Below are positions 4,762 through 14,820 of a stretch of 15,936 nt of DNA, one piece after another. Numbering within the stretch: the stretch's first letter is position 1; each line of letters starts with the position of its first letter. The stretch is from a bacterium (GTDB lineage Bacteria > Thermosulfidibacterota > Thermosulfidibacteria > Thermosulfidibacterales > JALWSI01): the NCBI GenBank assembly GCA_027080315.1, contig JALWSI010000172.1, positions 1-15,936 on the forward strand, given 5' to 3'. Position numbers and translations under genes: made by a program. A model generated the notes under the pieces. That model ran no database searches, was not told the DNA's origin, and was given only the letters and a program-made list of their open reading frames with translations.

Positions 4762-6780
4762 CTAAGCTTCAGGTTGGGGAGGTTCTATCGCTCTTGCCAC
4801 CAGTTCCGCAATATCCCTTACTGAGACCTCTTCTTCTTTGCCCGCGTCTTTCACACCGTCTTCAAACATTGTCAGACAGAAGGGACAAGCCGTTACAATC
4901 TTATCAGGGTTCTTAGCCAAAGCTTCTTGGCACCTCACAACGTTGATCCTGTGCCCTATCTTCTCTTCCATCCACATTCTACCGCCTCCGGCCCCACAGC
5001 AGAAGGAGCGCTCGTGGTTGCGGTCCATCTCTGTTAGCTGTTCCTCTGGCACAAGATTTCTCAAAATGTAGCGGGGTTCGTCGTATATGTTGTTATGACG
5101 GCCAAGGTAGCAGGAGTCGTGGTAAATAGTACGATGAGGCAGAGCTATGTTGAAGCGGATCTTCTTTTCGCGAATCAGTTTGGCAATAAACTGGGAATGG
5201 TGCCAAACCTCTCCATTCCAGCCGTACTGGGAATACTCATGTTTGAAGGTGTGGTAGCCGTGGGGACAGGCAGTGATTATTTTTTTAACATTGTAGGAGT
5301 TTAGAAGTTCTGCCACCTCAGTGGCCATCATCTCAAACAGGTACTCATTACCAAGCCTTCTGGCAGAGTCGCCGCAGCACTTCTCTTCAACTCCAAGAAT
5401 GGCAAAGGAGACATCCGCTGCTTTGAGTATGGTTACCAGATCTTTCATGACCTTCTTGTAGCGATCATCATAGGCCCCTGCACAACCCACCCACAATAGG
5501 TATTCAGCATCGGGGTTATCCGATATCAGAGGAATATCAAGTCCCTCTGCCCAATCGGCTCGGTTCGCAAAACCCACACCCCAAGGATTTGAATTGTTCT
5601 CAAGGTTCCTGAAAGTGATCTGGAGTTCTTCAGCAATATCGCTCTCCATCAGGGTCAGATAACGCCTCATCTCAACGATCTTCTGCGGATGTTCGTTGAG
5701 AACAGGACATATTGAGAGACAAGCCCCACAGGTAGTGCAAGACCAGATTGCATCTCTGGATATAACCCTATCTATCAAAGGCTTAACCGTCTCGCACTCC
5801 TCGTCGGGGGGAGGAAGCTTATCCTCCTTTTTAAGCTTGATCACCTCAGGTGCATCTTCAAGCAAGGCATCTCTCAGGTTCTGGATAAGCATACCCGGTT
5901 CTAAGGGTTTTCCGGTGTTGTTGGCAGGACATTGATCTGTACATCTATTGCAATAGGTACAAGCGTAAGTGTCTAAAAGGTCTTTCCAAGAGAGCTGATC
6001 TATGCGGTTCACCCCGAAGAACTCTGCGTTCTCAAAGTCCATACGGTGCTGTTTAAAGCCCTCTTTGTTCTGCAGGTAGATGTTAGGCACCCCGGCGATT
6101 ATGTGCATGTGCTTGGAGTAAAGCAGAAGGGGCACAAAGACCAGAAGGATTGCAGTGTGTAAAGCCCAGGCCCCAGTGTAGATGGAGGATGCCGCAGTGG
6201 TGGTATGGGGCCCAAGCAGGGCATGAAGAATTCCCGAGATAGGCCTTACAGCCTTCTCTCCAAGCTGTATCTCTGCCATGTTCATAGCAAAGAAGGTTAT
6301 CACCACACCTGCTATGAGCCCCAGAATCACAGGAGCATCCCAATGGTTGTCAACCCTCTTGGGTTTAACGATGAACCTTCTTACGGCTGCTCCACAAATG
6401 GCTACAAACACCCCAAGAGCAAATATGTCTTGAAGTAGGGTTAAGCCACCATAAAGGTACCTGCCCAGAAAAGCGAAAGAGAACTCAGGAAAGGCGATGC
6501 GCAGTACGGCCTCCACAGCGGTGGGGAAAAGAAGAAGGAATCCCCAGAATATAGCTGTGTGCATGATCCCCGTGGAAATATAGGGCTCTTTCCGACTACA
6601 TATCTGAGCCAGAACGTATTTGGCCGTCTCTTTCAGCCGCACATTACCATCGTCTGTTCGGGGGATAGGGCTCTCAACTCCTATCTTCAAGTAGTCAAGC
6701 AGCTGCTTAAACCTGAAAGCGAAAAGCCCGAACGAGGCCAACGCCAATGCCGCAAGTATCAACCTTAGCACCATACGCAT
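4762..6780 (-). CDS. Membrane Fe-S oxidoreductase, probable Etf:(methyl)menaquinone oxidoreductase
   Basis: A 672-residue fusion that probably carries electrons from reduced EtfAB to menaquinone at the inner membrane. Residues 1-230 hold about five or six hydrophobic helices like NarI-type cytochrome b subunits, with His74, His208 and His224 as possible haem ligands. Two [4Fe-4S] motifs follow: C274-x2-C277-x2-C280-x3-C284-P and C348-x2-C351-x2-C354-x3-C358-P. The C-terminal half has two HdrD-like CCG domains (C433, CC468-469, C505; C557, CC594-595, C632). This order matches the DUF224/GlpC-HdrD-like proteins shown in syntrophic bacteria to link Etf to the quinone pool. The start at ATG 6780 has AGGAGAGG just upstream. 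It lies 56 bp after etfA, which strongly supports the partner. Direction, to or from quinone, cannot be read from sequence. Confidence 0.88.
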
Positions 6781-6836: not shown

Positions 6837-7808
6837 TTAGGTAGTGGCCTTTTTCAGCTCTTCGGTGAGCAGAGGTACAATCTTAAACAGATCGCCCACG
6901 GCACCAAAGTCAGCTATGTTGAAGATGGGGGCATCGGGATCTTTGTTGATGGCCACAATGTACTTACTTGAGGACATTCCCGCCAAGTGCTGGATGGCCC
7001 CTGAGATACCCACTGCCACATAGAGGTTTGGAGAGACCGTCTTTCCAGTCTGACCAACCTGGAATGACTGAGGTTTCCAACCAGCGTCCACAGCCGCCCT
7101 GCTGGCTCCCACTGCTGCTCCCAGAAGGTCTGCAAGCTCTTCAACCAGCTTAAAGTTCTCACCCTCTTTAAGGCCACGACCACCAGAGACAATGATAGCA
7201 GCCTCCGTTAGCTCTGGTCTACCGGTCTCTTTGCTCACAAACTCTTTCATGGTCTGCTTAGAGTCCACATCTGCCGCCGAGAAGGGCACCTCTACCACTT
7301 CAGGGGTTCCCCCTACCTCTTCAACGTTGAACACGTTGCTACGCAGAGTGGCCATCTGAATCTCAGAAGAGAAGCCTATCTTGGTTATCACCTTTCCAGA
7401 GATGGCAGGACGGGTTGCTACCAGTTTTCCACCATCTACATCAAAGGCTATACAGTCGGAGGCCAATCCGGCTCCCACCTTAGCGGCAACCCTGGCAGCA
7501 ATCTCCCTTCCGTTCAAGGTGTTACCCACAAAGATCACCTTGGGAGAATGCTCTTTAACTAGGTCTGCTATAGCCCTGGAGTAGGCAATGGGATTGTAGC
7601 TGGCAAGGTCAGCCGAATCTATTGCGTACACCTTCTTAGCACCATACTTGCCTATCTCTGCGGCAAGATCCTTAACCCCGCTGCCCACAATAACCGCCTC
7701 AAAAGGCACTCCCAACTTGCTGGCCACGCGGTTTCCTTCGCTAAGGGCCTCAAGACTCGCCTTGCGAAGCTTCCCGTTTCTCTGTTCTGCTATTACCCAC
7801 AGACTCAT
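6837..7808 (-). CDS. etfA: Electron transfer flavoprotein, alpha subunit
   Basis: A 323-residue protein of normal length for EtfA. The N-terminal half is the structural domain shared with EtfB ([20 protein letters not shown]). The C-terminal half is the FAD-binding domain with the signature [12 protein letters not shown], followed by [18 protein letters not shown] and [12 protein letters not shown] and then NKDPDAPIF. With EtfB it forms the soluble heterodimer that accepts electrons from acyl-CoA dehydrogenase and hands them to the membrane Fe-S protein encoded next. The gene starts 13 bp after etfB with a purine-rich GGGGAGAAG before ATG 7808. Nothing is truncated. Confidence 0.97.
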
Positions 7809-7821
7809 CTCTCTTCTCCCC

Positions 7822-8613
7822 TTAGATAACCTTGATCTCTTCTTTTAAGAACTTAACCAGCTCAGCCACCACCTCTTCAGGCTCTCCCTCAACCTTCTTG
7901 CCACCACCTCGGGCAGGAGGCAGCTCGTATGAGAGAACCTCGGTGCGCGATCCATTCTTACCCACCTCTGAAGCATCTATTCCAAGGTCTCCAAGAGAGT
8001 AGGTGGTAAGGGGTTTCTTTTTGGCCTTCATGATGTTCGGCAAAGAGGGATACCTGGGCTCGTTCAGGCCCTTGCTGCAGGTGATCACAGCGGGAAGGGT
8101 GAGCTCGTGGATCTCTTCTCCTCCCTCAACCAGCCTCGTTGCCACCGCCTTTGAGCCAGGCTCAACCTCTAAGGCCACGGTGCAGGTGGCCTGGGGCAGG
8201 TCAAGAAGGGCTGCCACCTGAGAGGGCACCTGCCAGGTGTCACCGTCAATGGCTCTCTGACCGAATAGAAGCAGATCAAAGTCTCCACCCTCTTTCTCAA
8301 GCACCTTAACCAGCACCTTTGCAGTGGCAAGGGTATCAGAACCGTCCAGGGCATCATCGGTGACCAATACGGCCCTGTCTGCCCCGATAGCCAAGGCGTT
8401 TCTCAAGGCCTCTTGGGCCCGGGCAGGCCCCATAGAGATGGCCACGATCTCTTCGGCCTTCTTGGCCTCTTTCATCCTAACCGCCTCTTCAACAGCAAAC
8501 TCGTCGTAGGGGTTTAGAATGTACTTGATCCCGCTGGTATCCAGCCTGTCGCCCTTCAACCTGACCTTGGTCTCTGTGTCAGGGACAGACTTGCAGAAGA
8601 CCGCTATCTTCAT
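7822..8613 (-). CDS. etfB: Electron transfer flavoprotein, beta subunit
   Basis: A 263-residue protein, the usual length for EtfB. It begins [20 protein letters not shown] and carries [16 protein letters not shown] (residues 34-49), [10 protein letters not shown] and the [21 protein letters not shown] region that contacts the bound nucleotide. [28 protein letters not shown] is the conserved EtfB recognition loop that docks on partner dehydrogenases. It is the first gene of the operon, with GGAGG 7 nt before ATG 8613. Its own promoter region (8614-8707) contains a FadR-like operator, so it is probably transcribed separately from the acyl-CoA dehydrogenase operon upstream, which ends in a strong terminator. 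Pairing with a quinone-linked membrane protein argues for an ordinary, non-bifurcating Etf, although the sequence alone does not settle this. Confidence 0.97.
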
Positions 8614-8751: not shown

Positions 8752-9903
8752 TTAAATACCTATGCCTTTCAGAAGGTTTCTTGCAATGGTCAAGCGCTGA
8801 GCCTCTGAGGTACCCTCGTAGATCTCGGTGATCTTGGCGTCTCTGTAGTGACGCTCAACGGGATACTCCTCAATGAATCCGTAACCACCGTGGATCTGGA
8901 TAGCCTCTCTGGTCACCCTCATAGCCACATCTGAGGCCATGAGTTTGGACATGGCAGAGTGGTGGTAGAAGAGCTTGCCCTCTTGCTCAAGCCATGCAGC
9001 CTTGAGGTTGAGCAGGCGTGCCGCCTCAATGGCAGTGGCCATGTCGGCCAGTTTGAACTGAATGGCCTGGAAGTTAGCAATGGGCTGGCCAAACTGGGCC
9101 CTCTCCTGAGCAAAGGCAAGGGCAGCCTCAAAGGCAGCCTGAGCAATACCTATGGCCTGGGCAGCCACACCAACCCTGCCTCCGTCGTAGCACTCCATGG
9201 CGATGTAAAAGCCCTGTCCCTCTTTGCCCAAGAGGTTCTCTGCAGGCACCTCGCAGTTCTCAAAGATGAGCTCCGCAGTTGAGGATCCCCTTATGCCCAA
9301 CTTATGCTCCAGCTTTCCAATGGAGAAACCAGGGGTGCCCTTCTCAACAATAAAAGCGCTAATACCTTTATGACGGGCTTCTTTGTCAGTCTTTGCAAAA
9401 ACAAGGTATATGCCTGCCTCTTTGCCGTTGGTTATGAAATGCTTTGTACCATTAAGAATGTACTTGTCTCCCTCTTTCTTAGCTGTGGTGGAGATTGAAG
9501 CAACATCTGTTCCCGCTCCTGGTTCCGTCATGGCGTGGGCACCAACCTTCTCTCCCGAAGCAAGGGGAACCAGAAACTTCTTCTTCTGCTCTTCGGTTCC
9601 GTGCTTGTAAATGGGGTCAACCACCAAAGAGGTGTGGGCAGAGACAAGGATACCAGTAGATGCGCATCCCCTTGAAAGCTCTTCAACAACGATGGCATAC
9701 GAGACCACATCCATTCCGGCTCCGCCGTACTCCTCTGGGATATAAACCCCAAATAACCCCAGTTCTGCCAGTTTCTGGTAGATCTCAGGGAATATCTCGC
9801 CCCTCTTATCAATCTCTGCCGCCTTTGGCTTGATCTCCTCCTCCACAAGGCGGCGCACCATATCTCTTACCATGTTTTGCTCTTCTGTGAGCTCAAAACG
9901 CAT
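8752..9903 (-). CDS. Acyl-CoA dehydrogenase, short-chain (butyryl-CoA) type
   Basis: A 383-residue FAD flavoenzyme, full length for the family. It probably oxidises butyryl-CoA or a related short-chain acyl-CoA to the trans-2-enoyl-CoA and gives the electrons to EtfAB. The N-terminal helical domain (1-120) is followed by the first signature AMTEPGAGTDV (124-134), the middle beta domain with HFITNG, and the C-terminal helical domain with AQFGQPIANFQAIQFKLADM. The second signature, IHGGYGFIEEYPVERHYRDA, leads to IYEGTSEAQR with catalytic Glu363 in the short-chain position. Chain length is inferred from this Glu position and from the 3-hydroxybutyryl-CoA dehydrogenase in the same operon. It is the last gene of the operon, 18 bp after the crotonase gene. 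Confidence 0.95.
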   Translation of the reverse strand: MRFELTEEQNMVRDMVRRLVEEEIKPKAAEIDKRGEIFPEIYQKLAELGLFGVYIPEEYGGAGMDVVSYAIVVEELSRGCASTGILVSAHTSLVVDPIYKHGTEEQKKKFLVPLASGEKVGAHAMTEPGAGTDVASISTTAKKEGDKYILNGTKHFITNGKEAGIYLVFAKTDKEARHKGISAFIVEKGTPGFSIGKLEHKLGIRGSSTAELIFENCEVPAENLLGKEGQGFYIAMECYDGGRVGVAAQAIGIAQAAFEAALAFAQERAQFGQPIANFQAIQFKLADMATAIEAARLLNLKAAWLEQEGKLFYHHSAMSKLMASDVAMRVTREAIQIHGGYGFIEEYPVERHYRDAKITEIYEGTSEAQRLTIARNLLKGIGI

Positions 9904-9921: not shown

Positions 9922-10644
9922 CTATTTTAGATCCTCAAACCTTGGTTCTCTCTTCTCTGCAAAGGCTGTCATGCCCTCTTTCTGGTCATGGGTTGTGAAG
10001 CAGAGAGAGAAGACCTGTCTCTCAAATTCGCATCCGTTCCGCAAGTCCATGTCGCACCCTGCGTGAATCACCTCTTTGCACAGAGACAAGGCCTTAGGAG
10101 AGCGTGTGAGCAGGGTATCAGCAAATTCAGCGGCAGAGGCCTGCAGGCTTTCAAAGTCACCTTCAACGCCGTTAAGCAAGCCTGCACCGAAAGCCTCTTC
10201 TGCACTCCATATCCTGCCTGCAAGGTAGAGCTCTTTGGCCCTGGGCAGTCCCACCATCCGTACCAGACGCTGGGTTCCCCCAAGACCCGGTAGCCTTCCC
10301 GAAGGCAACCCAAACCTTGAGCCTGCGGTAGCAAACAAGAGATCGCATGCAGCTGCCACTTCTAAACAACACTCGTAGCACTCACCATTAACGAGGCCAA
10401 GCACAGGACGCGGGAAATCCTCAAGAGATCTAACCGCATTTAAGGCGATAAAGGATGAAGGGGAGGGCGTACCCTCCCCCACACAAGAGATTTCCAGCAT
10501 CAAAAGTAGCGCCTCTTGGTCCTCTGCGATCTCTCTCAGTCTCGTTTCGAACTGTCCAAACCACCCCTCTTGGGGCCAATGGGGCATCTCTACCCTTAAT
10601 AGGGCCCTTTTGTTTGAGGTGGTATGGGCAGGAATATAGTTCAT
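9922..10644 (-). CDS. Crotonase-fold protein (enoyl-CoA hydratase/isomerase family) with altered active site
   Basis: At 240 residues it is slightly shorter than typical enoyl-CoA hydratases. The fold is clear: VLGLVNG (81-87), CDLLFATAGSRFGLP (100-114), LPGLGGTQRLVR, AKELYLAG with Glu138, and the terminal KEGMTAFAEKREPRFEDL. By position it should hydrate crotonyl-CoA. However, the oxyanion-hole stretch NGxxxGGGCE reads N86-G-E-C-Y-E91-C92-C93-L-E95, replacing all three glycines. The segment carrying the first catalytic Glu (rat Glu144, in QPEILIGTIPG) is shortened to P114-S-G-R-L-P-G, without the Glu. The second catalytic Glu (rat Glu164) is kept as Glu138. Ordinary hydratase activity is therefore doubtful. 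ATG 10644 directly follows the previous gene's TAA without a good Shine-Dalgarno sequence; Met20 is an alternative start preceded by AGGGTAGAG. Confidence 0.88.
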   Translation of the reverse strand: MNYIPAHTTSNKRALLRVEMPHWPQEGWFGQFETRLREIAEDQEALLLMLEISCVGEGTPSPSSFIALNAVRSLEDFPRPVLGLVNGECYECCLEVAAACDLLFATAGSRFGLPSGRLPGLGGTQRLVRMVGLPRAKELYLAGRIWSAEEAFGAGLLNGVEGDFESLQASAAEFADTLLTRSPKALSLCKEVIHAGCDMDLRNGCEFERQVFSLCFTTHDQKEGMTAFAEKREPRFEDLK

Positions 10645-11508
10645 TTATTTAGAGTAATCGTAGAATCCTTTGCCAGACTTTCTACCAAGATACCCTGCAT
10701 CCACCATCTTCACCAGAAGGGGACATGGACGGTACTTAGGATCGTTGAAGCTGTCGTACATAACCTGCAAGATGAAGAGACAAGTATCAAGTCCGATGAG
10801 GTCTGCAAGGGCCAAGGGACCCATGGGGTGATTGGCACCGAGCTTCATGATGGTGTCAATAGCCTCTGGAGAGCCAACACCCTCGTAAAGGGCAAATATG
10901 GCCTCGTTGATCATGGGCATAAGGACCCTGTTTGAAACAAACCCCGGAGAGTCCTTAATCACAACCGGCACCTTGCCTATCTTCTCAGACAAGGCCACCA
11001 CCAGATCCGTCACCTCTTTGCTGGTCTGCAGCCCCTCGATCACCTCAATCAGCTTCATCACAGGCACAGGGTTCATGAAGTGCATACCGATCACCTGATT
11101 GGGTCTGTTGGTGAAAGCGGCTATCTTGGTAATGGAAATTGAAGATGTGTTACTGGATAAGATCACCTCTGAAGGCATTAAATTGTCTAAATCTTTAAAT
11201 ATCTGCTCTTTGATCTCCACATTTTCGGTTGCAGCCTCAACCACAAAGTCAACCCCGGCAAGGTCCTCAAGCTTCTCGGTCAAGGTGATACGGTTCAGGA
11301 TCTCTTCTTTTCCCTCCGCTGAGAGCTTATCTTTCTTAACCAGGCGATCCAGGTTCTTGCTAATGGTGTTCAGCCCTTTTTGGGCAAACTCCATTGAGAT
11401 ATCCCTCATCACCACTTCGTAACCAGCCATTGCACACACCTGGGCAATACCGTTGCCCATGGTACCTGCACCCACAACACCTATCTTTTTGATATCTTCA
11501 AGCTTCAT
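10645..11508 (-). CDS. hbd: 3-hydroxybutyryl-CoA dehydrogenase
   Basis: A 287-residue NAD(P)-dependent enzyme that interconverts 3-hydroxybutyryl-CoA and acetoacetyl-CoA. The Rossmann motif is GVVGAGTMGNGIAQ (10-23), with an acidic residue at the end of strand two (VVMRDIS) favouring NAD. The catalytic set Ser119/Asn120 in SSNTSS, His143 in GMHFMNPVPVMKLIE, Glu155 and Asn193 in PGFVSNRVL is intact. It has the short single-function architecture of the butyrate-type enzymes. I place the start at ATG 11508, which has GGGAGG 8 nt upstream; a longer frame to 11535 would overlap the thiolase gene and lacks support. It lies 23 bp after the thiolase gene and runs directly into the crotonase gene. Confidence 0.95.
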   Translation of the reverse strand: MKLEDIKKIGVVGAGTMGNGIAQVCAMAGYEVVMRDISMEFAQKGLNTISKNLDRLVKKDKLSAEGKEEILNRITLTEKLEDLAGVDFVVEAATENVEIKEQIFKDLDNLMPSEVILSSNTSSISITKIAAFTNRPNQVIGMHFMNPVPVMKLIEVIEGLQTSKEVTDLVVALSEKIGKVPVVIKDSPGFVSNRVLMPMINEAIFALYEGVGSPEAIDTIMKLGANHPMGPLALADLIGLDTCLFILQVMYDSFNDPKYRPCPLLVKMVDAGYLGRKSGKGFYDYSK

Positions 11509-11531
11509 CTTCAAACCTCCCTGGTTAATTT

Positions 11532-12713
11532 TCACACAACCTCAACGATCATGCTAACTGCTCCGCCCCCACCGAGGCAGATAGTGGCCAAACCCCTCTT
11601 CAAGCCGCGCCTTCTTAGCTCATGAATCAGAGTGACTAAAATACGGCATCCACTGGCCCCAATGGGATGTCCAATAGCCACTGCTCCTCCGTTAACATTG
11701 AACTTCTCATGAGGGATGTTAAGGGCCTTTTTCACCGCACAGGACGCAGCAGCAAAGGCCTCGTTGTGTTCTACCAGGTCAATATCGTCAATGGTGAATC
11801 CTGTCTTCTCCAAAAGGGCCTTCACGCCAGGAATGGGAGCCTCCATAACCCACTTAGGCTCCACATGCCAGTAGTTGTAAGCAACTATTCTGGCTATGGG
11901 ATTAAGCCCCTTCTTCTCAGCGGCCTTGGCAGAAGCAATAACAACAGCGGCAGCCCCATCGCTTATCTGGGAAGCATTGCCCGCTGTCACCCTACCGTCT
12001 TTCTTAATAGCGGGTCTAAGCTTGCCCAGCTTCTCCATGGTGGTCTCTTTGGGCCCTTCATCGGCCTCAATAACAATAGGATCTCCTTTGCGCTGGGGCA
12101 CCTCTACCGGAACAATCTCGTTCTTGAAGTAGCCCTTTTGGGTAGCCTCAATGGCCCTTCTGTTGCTCTCCAAAGAGAAGGCATCCATCTCTTCCCGGGA
12201 GACATCGTACTTCTCGGCAATAAGCCCACCAGTCATGAGCATGTGGAAGTCTTCATAGGGATCCCACAAGCCGTCAAATATCATCATGTCAACGATCTTT
12301 CCATCACCCATGCGGTATCCCGAACGGGCTTTGGGCAAGAAGTAGGGACAGAGGCTCATGCTCTCCATTCCGCCTGCTATTATGAAATCGGTCTCACCCA
12401 CCTTGATTGAGTTGGCACCCACTGTGATGGCCTTAAGGCCTGAACCGCAAACCTTGTTCACTGTGAGGGCATTCACATTATCAGGCACACCAGCATACCT
12501 CATTGCCTGGCGAGCAGGGGCCTGACCAACACCACCCTGAAGCACCTGACCCATTATGCACTCTCCAAACTCGCCAGGCTCAACCCCAGACCTTGCCACT
12601 GCCTCTTTAATAGCTATGGCTCCCAGCTTAGTGGCTGGAATAGAACTCAATCCTCCCTGAAACCTTCCTATGGGAGTCCTCACCGCGCTTAGGATAACAA
12701 CCTCTTCACTCAT
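11532..12713 (-). CDS. Acetyl-CoA C-acetyltransferase (thiolase II)
   Basis: A 393-residue thiolase that would cleave acetoacetyl-CoA with CoA to two acetyl-CoA. The nucleophile is Cys89 in [10 protein letters not shown]. The remaining active-site blocks are Asn317 in HNEAFAA, His349 in [14 protein letters not shown] and Cys379 in CLGGGGAV, all intact. Length and motifs fit the biosynthetic/degradative short-chain thiolases. ATG 12713 overlaps the regulator's TGA by one base (TGATG), with AGGAGG 7 nt upstream; the TTG three bases earlier is not needed. It is the first enzyme gene in the operon after the regulator, and translation is probably coupled. Confidence 0.96.
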
Positions 12714-13339
12714 CAATCTTCCTCCTTTGGGACCTCTTTGGATCTCTCTCTTCTCCCCCGGTAGACCACTGCAAGGGCGGTACTACCCTTCTCACCGTAT
12801 ATCCTGTGCGAAACCACAGACTCAAAAAGAACCGAGTCCCCAGGTTCCAGCACAAATAGTTGATCGCCGTATTCCATGTAAACCTTTCCGCTAAGAACGT
12901 ACAGGAACTCCTCGCCGGTATGGCTCATGCAGTCCTGAGCCTCCCTCTCTTCCTCTCCCTCAAAGTGAACTATAAAAGGCTCTATAACCCTGTCTTCTTT
13001 TCCGTATCCCAAAGACTCATAAGTTAGCACCATCTGGGACTCTTCCCGGGTCATGAAGCGCCCCTTGCCCCTCCTCACAATAAAATAGTCTTCCCGATTT
13101 ATTGGGGTTTGCTGAAAGAAGTGAGCAAGTCTTATCTCCAAAGCATTGGCGATTGTCCACAGAGTTGAGATGGGAGGAGAGACAACGTTATTCTCAATTT
13201 GAGAAAGAAGAGCGGTGGAGAACCCAGTCTTTTGGGCCAGTTCTTTCAGGGTGTATCCCTTCTCTTTTCTTATCTTTCTTATCTCCCCACCTATGTTCAG
13301 AGCCTCAATCAGGGATTTACGGTCTTTTTGCGAGGTCAT
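12713..13339 (-). CDS. XRE-family transcriptional regulator with C-terminal cupin domain
   Basis: A 208-residue DNA-binding protein. Residues 15-75 are an HTH_3 (Cro/CI-like) domain: IGGEIRKIRKEKGYTLKELA, then TGFSTALLSQIENNVVSPPI. Residues about 100-195 form a cupin barrel with motif 1 (CMSHTGEEFLYVLSGKVYMEYG) and motif 2 (GDSVLFESVVSHRIYG), so it may bind a metal or a small ligand; only some of the classical cupin His ligands are present. The start at ATG 13339 is chosen for the strong GGAGGGAGGA before it; the frame extends to a TTG at 13405, which is less likely. It heads the operon for thiolase, hbd, crotonase and acyl-CoA dehydrogenase. It probably controls this operon and perhaps the divergent aldehyde dehydrogenase gene. 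The ligand is unknown. Confidence 0.92.
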   Translation of the reverse strand: MTSQKDRKSLIEALNIGGEIRKIRKEKGYTLKELAQKTGFSTALLSQIENNVVSPPISTLWTIANALEIRLAHFFQQTPINREDYFIVRRGKGRFMTREESQMVLTYESLGYGKEDRVIEPFIVHFEGEEEREAQDCMSHTGEEFLYVLSGKVYMEYGDQLFVLEPGDSVLFESVVSHRIYGEKGSTALAVVYRGRRERSKEVPKEED

Positions 13340-13632
13340 TCCTCCCTCCCCTGGCCTCAAGATCAGATTTACCCCCCGCTTACCAAAAGAGCTGTTTGGC
13401 GTCAAGAAAATAGTTTAGTTTCACCAAAAATACTTCAAACCATCTAAAAGCTATCCTACAGGTGATAGGATCGCAAGAAGAAGAGGGTATTCATTCCCAG
13501 AAAGCTCCGTCAGCACAACTCTGAATCAACGGTGTAATCCTTAGACCAGCTTCACACTATTCTGGGATGTTGAAGTTCCAGTCGTAATGGGTAACAAAGA
13601 GTTTGAAAACACCAAGAATAGGGGAGAGAACC
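13340..13632. promoter_or_regulatory. Divergent intergenic region with two candidate operators
   Basis: This 293-bp region must hold the promoters of both the regulator-led operon (minus strand) and the aldehyde dehydrogenase homologue (plus strand). A minus-strand TTGACG (13405-13400) is followed by the inverted repeat CCAAA-n7-TTTGG (13383-13399) and a weak TAAGCG -10. A second inverted repeat, ATCCTA-n7-TAGGAT (13453-13471), lies mid-region. No obvious plus-strand promoter is seen; TTGAAG at 13569-13574 with TAACAA at 13591-13596 is a weak possibility. Confidence 0.45.
13453..13471. promoter_or_regulatory. Inverted repeat, candidate regulator-binding site
   Basis: ATCCTA and TAGGAT are perfect 6-bp arms around 7 bp, extending with GC/GC pairs after one mismatch to 13450-13474. 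It stands between two divergent operons and fits a dimeric regulator such as the XRE-cupin protein, by inference from position. Confidence 0.35.
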
Positions 13633-14820
13633 ATGGACCTTAACCAACGCTTAAATATGCTCTCAGAGCTTGGAAGTAAGATAGCCGAGAAAGAAGAGGA
13701 GTTTGTTAAGGCCCTGGCGGAAGACCTGGGCCAGGCCATGAAGGTGACCAAGGCGGAGATCGCCCTTGCCTCAAAGCATCTCACCACTATGGAAGAAGAC
13801 GTGCCTCACCTGCAAGACAGAGAACCCTATGGGGTGGTGGCCATGGTTCTACCCTACGATGCTCCAACTGTTATGTTTGCCCGCTGGGTGGGAGCGGCTC
13901 TGCTTGGAGGCAACAGGGTGAAGGTGAGCTTCTCGTCTCAAACCCCAAACACCAACAGGATAATGGCAGAGATATGCAAACCATACCATCCATGGATTGA
14001 GACCATAACCGACATGGACAACCGTGACTTTGGTCTTAAGTGTGTTGAAGACCCAGAGGTGAGGGTCTTCTTCATCTCTGGGTCAGGTATGGTGGGCAGA
14101 GTTTACGAGAGCGCAGCAGACCTCTTTGATAAGGTGATCTACGCAGGACCAGTGGGCATGCCTCCTCTTCTCCTCTTTTCAGGGGCCGATGTTGATAAGG
14201 CAGCCAGTTTTGCAGCAAGAAGGGCCTTCCTCAACGGAGGGCAGTACTGCACCACCATAAAGAGGGTTCTGGTGAACAGAAAGATCGCAGAGCCCTTCAT
14301 CGCGAGGTTCCTGGAAGAGACAAAGAAGATAAAAGTGGGGGATCCCCTTGACCCCGAGACAGACTACGGCCCCATCAAAGTGGAACGCACAAGGGCCCTA
14401 TTTGAACGGGCGTTCAATAGAATAATAGGCACAACCCTCACAGGAGGACCACCCGAGGGAGAGTGGATTATGCCCACAGTGGTCCTGGCGAGAAGCATTC
14501 CCGACACAGAGGTGTTCGGGCCCTTTGTGGCCATCAAGGTTGTGGGAATGGATGACGCCATAGTTATGGATGCATACAACAGCAGGTTCCCTCTCATCGC
14601 CTACGCCTTTGGAAAGCCTCCCCTTGGAGGCAAGGGAAGGCTGGAGGCAACTTACGGCAAGGTGTATTGGGAACCTGACTTTCTCTACATGAGCCCCAGA
14701 GAGCCCTTTGGAGGCAGAAGGGAGAGTGGCTGGGTGCTTGAGAGAAAGAAATACTGCCTAAAGCGCCACGGCGGAGCTTTAAACTACGTTAAAGAGCTGA
14801 CACGTCCAAGAGAAGCCTAA
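13633..14820 (+). CDS. Aldehyde dehydrogenase superfamily protein, short, with non-canonical catalytic residues
   Basis: A 395-residue protein, shorter than the usual 450-500 residues because the N-terminal arm is missing. The fold is shown by YGVVAMVLPYDAPTVMFARWVGAALLGGN, ISGSGMVGRVYES, NGGQYCTTIKRVLVNR with Cys206, DPLDPETDYGPI and DTEVFGPFVAI with Glu293. Three canonical features differ: the catalytic Asn of the P-x-N-x-P motif is Asp76 (LPYDAP), the NAD-contacting Lys of the KP motif is lost (VKVSFSSQTP), and the ELGG motif with the general-base Glu reads A-G-P-V-G-M (171-176). It may act on an acyl-CoA or acyl phosphate, as CoA-acylating members do not need that Glu, or it may be non-catalytic. 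ATG 13633 has AGGGGAGAG 5 nt upstream; the earlier in-frame ATG 13603 lacks such a site. Confidence 0.85.
   Translation: MDLNQRLNMLSELGSKIAEKEEEFVKALAEDLGQAMKVTKAEIALASKHLTTMEEDVPHLQDREPYGVVAMVLPYDAPTVMFARWVGAALLGGNRVKVSFSSQTPNTNRIMAEICKPYHPWIETITDMDNRDFGLKCVEDPEVRVFFISGSGMVGRVYESAADLFDKVIYAGPVGMPPLLLFSGADVDKAASFAARRAFLNGGQYCTTIKRVLVNRKIAEPFIARFLEETKKIKVGDPLDPETDYGPIKVERTRALFERAFNRIIGTTLTGGPPEGEWIMPTVVLARSIPDTEVFGPFVAIKVVGMDDAIVMDAYNSRFPLIAYAFGKPPLGGKGRLEATYGKVYWEPDFLYMSPREPFGGRRESGWVLERKKYCLKRHGGALNYVKELTRPREA

Follow-up and report, generated by a model that had tools for sequence, protein, structure and literature searches.

A crotonase-fold protein of a beta-oxidation operon has lost the CoA and oxyanion site of its own chain and keeps its C-terminal helices

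We describe a degenerate crotonase, ECHx, encoded in a bacterial beta-oxidation operon, whose loss of hydratase function is well supported at the sequence level. With about an even chance of being right, we read it as a conserved non-hydratase protein of the crotonase fold, most likely a non-catalytic subunit that assembles together with an active crotonase. We infer this heteromeric role from the retention of the C-terminal helix, the one feature of the protein that points to it.

Results

The window, that is the whole stretch of 15,936 nucleotides forming contig C172, belongs to a genome of 1.84 Mb in 253 contigs. Its minus strand carries an operon that encodes, in this order, an HTH-cupin regulator at the operon head (12713-13405), a thiolase (11532-12716), a 3-hydroxybutyryl-CoA dehydrogenase (HBD, 10645-11535), ECHx (9922-10644, 240 amino acids), an acyl-CoA dehydrogenase (8752-9903), two proteins that we take to be EtfB (7822-8613) and EtfA (6837-7808), and a membrane FeS oxidoreductase with CCG and 4Fe-4S domains (4762-6780). 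The names EtfB and EtfA follow from the positions of the two genes in the conserved operon order. ECHx is flanked by the HBD and acyl-CoA dehydrogenase genes, and its ATG lies right behind the TAA of HBD (TAAATG). The G+C content of ECHx at the codon positions is similar to that of the neighbor genes which, as originally predicted, are intact, being full-length members of their families.

Two further regions of the window lie on the plus strand. A gene of the aldehyde dehydrogenase family (13603-14820, 405 amino acids), divergent from the operon, has a short N-terminus, its Pfam alignment beginning at position 46. At 912-2730, a DNA N4/N6-methyltransferase gene shares an overlap with a 299-amino acid protein that has no Pfam match, and the two look like a restriction-modification pair. 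No RNA families were found in the window.

ECHx matches the Pfam family ECH_1 (PF00378) with 100.3 bits (E = 1.4e-28, cut-off 27), only from residue 69 on and over profile positions 79-250. Its score against the NCBIfam model of short-chain enoyl-CoA hydratase (PRK05809) is 139 bits, below the cut-off of 394. The AlphaFold2 model built on a 42-row alignment (pLDDT 88.4, pTM 0.83) predicts a crotonase fold over the whole chain, and its nearest solved structure is the C. acetobutylicum crotonase 5Z7R (Z 27.2, rmsd 2.9, 227 aligned residues), tied with the structures of Nmar_1308 (Z 26.5-26.9). A frameshift or an assembly error behind the odd N-terminus and the ECC stretch could be ruled out. In translated searches, the canonical N-terminal halves match one frame, which is that of ECHx itself, and no better N-terminal half was found in another frame. 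In addition, a second genome (G002) has an independent copy that carries the same losses. The frame is therefore undamaged, in agreement with the original prediction, and open throughout the 240 codons.

In rat enoyl-CoA hydratase (ECH), the N atoms of Ala98 and Gly141 form the oxyanion hole, Glu144 activates the water and Glu164 protonates C2 (PMC13126182). Loop-2 contributes to the oxyanion hole and holds the adenine, and Phe279 and Lys282 contact the CoA bound by the neighboring subunit (PMC13126182); in crotonases, the trimer interface houses the active site (PMC3660561). We used as landmarks Ala98 in AFAAGADIK, Gly141 and Glu144 as the middle G and the E of GGGCE, and Glu164 in FGQPE. In place of loop-2 (xFxAGADIK, rat residues 92-101), ECHx has residues 51-63 (EISCVGEGTPSPS, 10456-10494, minus strand as all ECHx features), within a region of uncertain alignment that spans residues 1-68. 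This segment is devoid of the oxyanion-hole Ala98 and of the adenine and phosphate contacts, and the motif corresponding to Ala96-Lys101 of rat loop-2 is absent. The in-cis contacts with CoA and adenine (Ala60, Lys92, Ala96, Ala98, Ile100 and Lys101) are gone as well. Residues 89-93 (CYECC, 10366-10380) correspond to A-L-G-G-G at rat 138-142, which bears out that GGG reads ECC: the three glycines are replaced by Glu91, Cys92 and Cys93, with Cys92 in the position of Gly141. By sequence, ECHx does not offer the two-NH oxyanion hole of Ala98 and Gly141, given the absence of the loop-2 motif and the change of GGG to ECC. The original prediction had described the loss of the oxyanion-hole glycines, which holds for Gly141; this is however only one of the two residues of the hole, and the loss of Ala98 had gone unreported. 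The peptide NH of Cys92 could point inwards. Cys89 and Cys93, spaced as C-x3-C, head the active-site helix in both degenerate copies.

The acidic residues had been assigned differently. The first catalytic Glu, Glu144, is not missing but retained as Glu95 (10360-10362), in a column that is invariant in the 42-row alignment. The loop said to carry it without a Glu is indeed three residues shorter; it is instead the loop of Glu164 (residues 112-123, GLPSGRLPGLGG, 10276-10311), where Glu164 has become Ser115. From FG to GG, this loop measures 12 residues in ECHx and 15 in all of the 56 canonical crotonases. As for the 'Glu138' described as kept, it is the protein's own residue 138 (in AKEL), which aligns with rat Glu190 and is non-catalytic. 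The C-terminal helix region (residues 216-239, FTTHDQKEGMTAFAEKREPRFEDL, 9928-9999) keeps 7 out of 7 canonical invariants, including Phe228 (rat Phe279) and Lys231 (rat Lys282). Because loop-2, GGG and Glu164 are lost, the known mechanism makes it very unlikely that ECHx alone hydrates enoyl-CoA.

Our sample of the phylum comprised nine genomes from a single order. The search for homologues in the same operon, which had been proposed together with the original prediction, was successful in G002, a genome of a different family where a crotonase-like gene occupies the same slot (L160, 7220-7936, minus strand; 239 amino acids from a likely TTG start). In six other relatives (G001, G003, G005, G006, G007 and G008), instead, the operon is kept and HBD is directly followed by the acyl-CoA dehydrogenase, with no crotonase between them. 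ECHx is therefore dispensable. The G002 copy scores 69.8 bits against Pfam ECH_1, reads C-L-N-S-C-L-E in comparison to C-Y-E-C-C-L-E of ECHx, has a loop of 12 residues as well (GVDEKFIPLFGG), and lacks both GGG and the loop-2 motif. The two proteins have in common a Cys at rat positions 138 and 142 and a Ser at 158. The third Cys of ECHx (Cys92) is a Ser in the G002 copy, in which the alignment still places a Glu opposite Glu164. Of the 56 canonical crotonases, four have Cys138 and two have Ser158, and none has Cys142. The three-residue loop deletion of ECHx and the G002 copy occurs in none of the 77 other crotonases that we compared. The identity of the two proteins is 37%, compared to 64-77% for the operon enzymes. 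A tree inferred without the trait columns neither united the pair nor excluded it as a clade (AU test, p = 0.305, not rejected), and the case for common descent is therefore based on operon position and shared changes.

No further members emerged from a profile of the two copies searched over 386 genomes (domain-wide), with 343 and 319 bits for the pair and at most 144 for the others. The readable matches listed for this profile have canonical motifs or nearly so, except for a GPA variant (G255); one match, L217, escaped the motif pattern. Two more phylum searches, over 3 and 50 genomes, returned no further copies, and the ECC plus short-loop pattern was absent from the 80 relatives retrieved from 84,980 genomes with a single-sequence scan, which detects exact short peptides only. 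Genome G255, from another phylum, hosts two adjoining odd crotonases (L201, 1228-2677). The first has GPA for GGG, FSKGHD for loop-2 and a full-length loop, with 4/9 N-half and 7/7 C-terminal invariants; the second has GGGMD, HPGSKLG and 0/7 C-terminal invariants. They are possibly another mixed pair.

The distribution of the losses was compared with the invariant positions of the 56 canonical crotonases, which were gathered through whole-genome searches. ECHx keeps one of the nine N-terminal CoA and oxyanion invariants and the G002 copy two, neither keeps any of the three GGG positions, and both keep all seven invariants of the C-terminal helix. The difference between the N- and C-terminal sets in the positions kept by both copies corresponds to a Fisher P-value of ~1e-4, which is a rough figure as the columns are not independent. 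Crotonases of these sets in which both Glu are lost conserve 7-9 of the nine N-terminal invariants (6/9 in one from another phylum) and, in most cases, at least two of the three glycines. The pattern of ECHx is therefore unlike the usual change of chemistry.

At four-fold degenerate sites, the operon neighbors are 33-44% identical, which corresponds to saturation. Despite this, ECHx and the G002 copy are both full length (240 and 239 amino acids) and contain no stops, which makes neutral decay of the gene unlikely. At such divergence, a neutral frame is expected to acquire 8-10 stops, and stayed open in only 1-2 out of 20,000 simulations. The identity of the pair at the three codon positions (48/58/31%) follows the pattern of protein-level constraint. 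Together with the open frame, it indicates that ECHx is fast-evolving yet maintained.

The original prediction had also recommended counting the other crotonases of the genome. One canonical gene is divided between two contigs with an exact 126-base overlap (C145, 1-540, minus strand; C240, 3-389, plus strand), and its C145 part is 73.9% identical to the canonical gene of G002. A second canonical crotonase is on C135. Both genes have the two Glu, GGG and Ala98. The remaining ones are crotonases with altered acids on C181 and C12, and a fused HBD-crotonase on C88. The split gene stands alone, next to ORFs of 322 and 890 amino acids on the opposite strand, neither of which looks like a gene of beta-oxidation; in the relatives, the canonical gene adjoins a second HBD.

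Discussion

We propose that the ancestor of ECHx was a short-chain crotonase within a thl-hbd-crt-acad-etf operon. From this ancestor, the protein's own site for CoA and the oxyanion (loop-2 and GGG) would have disappeared together with the normal Glu164 loop, while the fold and the C-terminal helices were maintained. ECHx would then join an active crotonase in a trimer or hexamer, where Phe228 and Lys231 of its C-terminal helix would complete the active neighbor's CoA site. In this way it may tune the active crotonase, or localize it at the other beta-oxidation proteins of the operon, and hydration would be carried out by canonical crotonases encoded elsewhere. Two options of the original prediction, a structural or regulatory subunit and a true hydratase elsewhere in the genome, thus find support together, the candidates for the latter being the crotonases on C145+C240 and C135. 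Against the subunit role, the C-terminal helices may be kept for no more than the packing of a homotrimer. A more detailed version, which we put forward tentatively, sees ECHx as a phylum-specific pseudoenzyme subunit, stripped of its own CoA site, that would enter a mixed trimer with a catalytic crotonase, complete and control the active site of that enzyme and tie it to the beta-oxidation products of the operon, with the Cys pair at rat 138 and 142 possibly acting as a redox switch.

Alternatively, ECHx could be a decaying relic of the operon crotonase, released from constraint after a stand-alone crotonase took over and deleted in most relatives. The empty slot in six relatives, the much faster evolution of ECHx than of its neighbors (37% against 64-77% identity) and the canonical crotonases elsewhere in the genome all fit with this account. 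We nevertheless consider it unlikely, although not without some weight, because both copies are full length and free of stops despite the saturation of silent sites, the losses do not extend beyond the CoA site and leave the C-terminal helices intact in both copies, and changes are common to two families. Intact copies, localized loss and shared changes imply that the gene was kept long after the CoA site had gone. These shared changes also bear on whether the two copies are orthologues at all, or whether the crotonase of each operon degenerated separately, as would agree with the failure of the tree without trait columns to unite them. Separate degeneration seems quite improbable given that the copies sit in the same slot, share Cys138, Cys142 and Ser158, and carry a deletion that occurs in none of 77 other crotonases.

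ECHx might otherwise be an enzyme of different chemistry, in which Glu95 and the new Cys89, Cys92 and Cys93 act on another ligand. Reaction mechanisms vary within the crotonase superfamily (PMC3660561), the equivalent of Glu144 is invariant in both copies, and so are the Cys at rat 138 and 142. The third Cys, however, is not shared, being Ser in G002, and the crotonases of these genomes with other chemistry keep loop-2 and most of GGG. Moreover, ECHx has lost the in-cis contacts with CoA and adenine, that is the CoA site itself and not just acid residues, which disfavors this option of the original prediction and leaves it distinctly unlikely. The same loss weighs against a non-catalytic carrier or sensor of acyl-CoA similar to mycobacterial EchA6, since it makes acyl-CoA binding by ECHx alone doubtful. 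Such a protein, with a crotonase fold and without catalytic residues, is on record according to the account of Cox et al. 2016 in PMC5964476, but for ECHx we give this possibility a poor chance.

Comparison with known systems

An automatic annotation would name ECHx the enoyl-CoA hydratase of the operon, which would close the pathway, while the evidence indicates that this step comes from another gene. If the proposed role as a subunit is true, ECHx would be a crotonase-superfamily pseudoenzyme in which the CoA pocket itself is gone and the part that acts on the neighbor remains. This combination is present in none of the 77 other crotonases that we compared. We found no instance of it fixed in a beta-oxidation operon in the collections searched or in the open papers searched, none of which contained both 'crotonase' and 'pseudoenzyme'.

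With short-chain enoyl-CoA hydratase or Crt (rat ECHS1, 5Z7R), ECHx shares the fold, the slot between hbd and acad, Glu144 and the C-terminal helices with Phe279 and Lys282. It differs in having no loop-2 (Ala98) and no GGG (Gly141), in the loss of Glu164 and of the N-terminal CoA contacts, and in a loop that is three residues shorter. A non-catalytic protein of the crotonase fold is already known in kind: Mycobacterium tuberculosis EchA6, as described in PMC5964476, has no residues for catalysis. By that description, which is the basis of our comparison, EchA6 shuttles fatty acyl-CoA, whereas ECHx has lost its in-cis CoA site. The hydratase-isomerase complex PaaF-PaaG of E. coli (4FZW) offers a precedent for two different crotonase-fold proteins in one complex, and a model of how ECHx might act. 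In PaaF-PaaG both partners are enzymes, by name, whereas the partner of ECHx is one that we infer.
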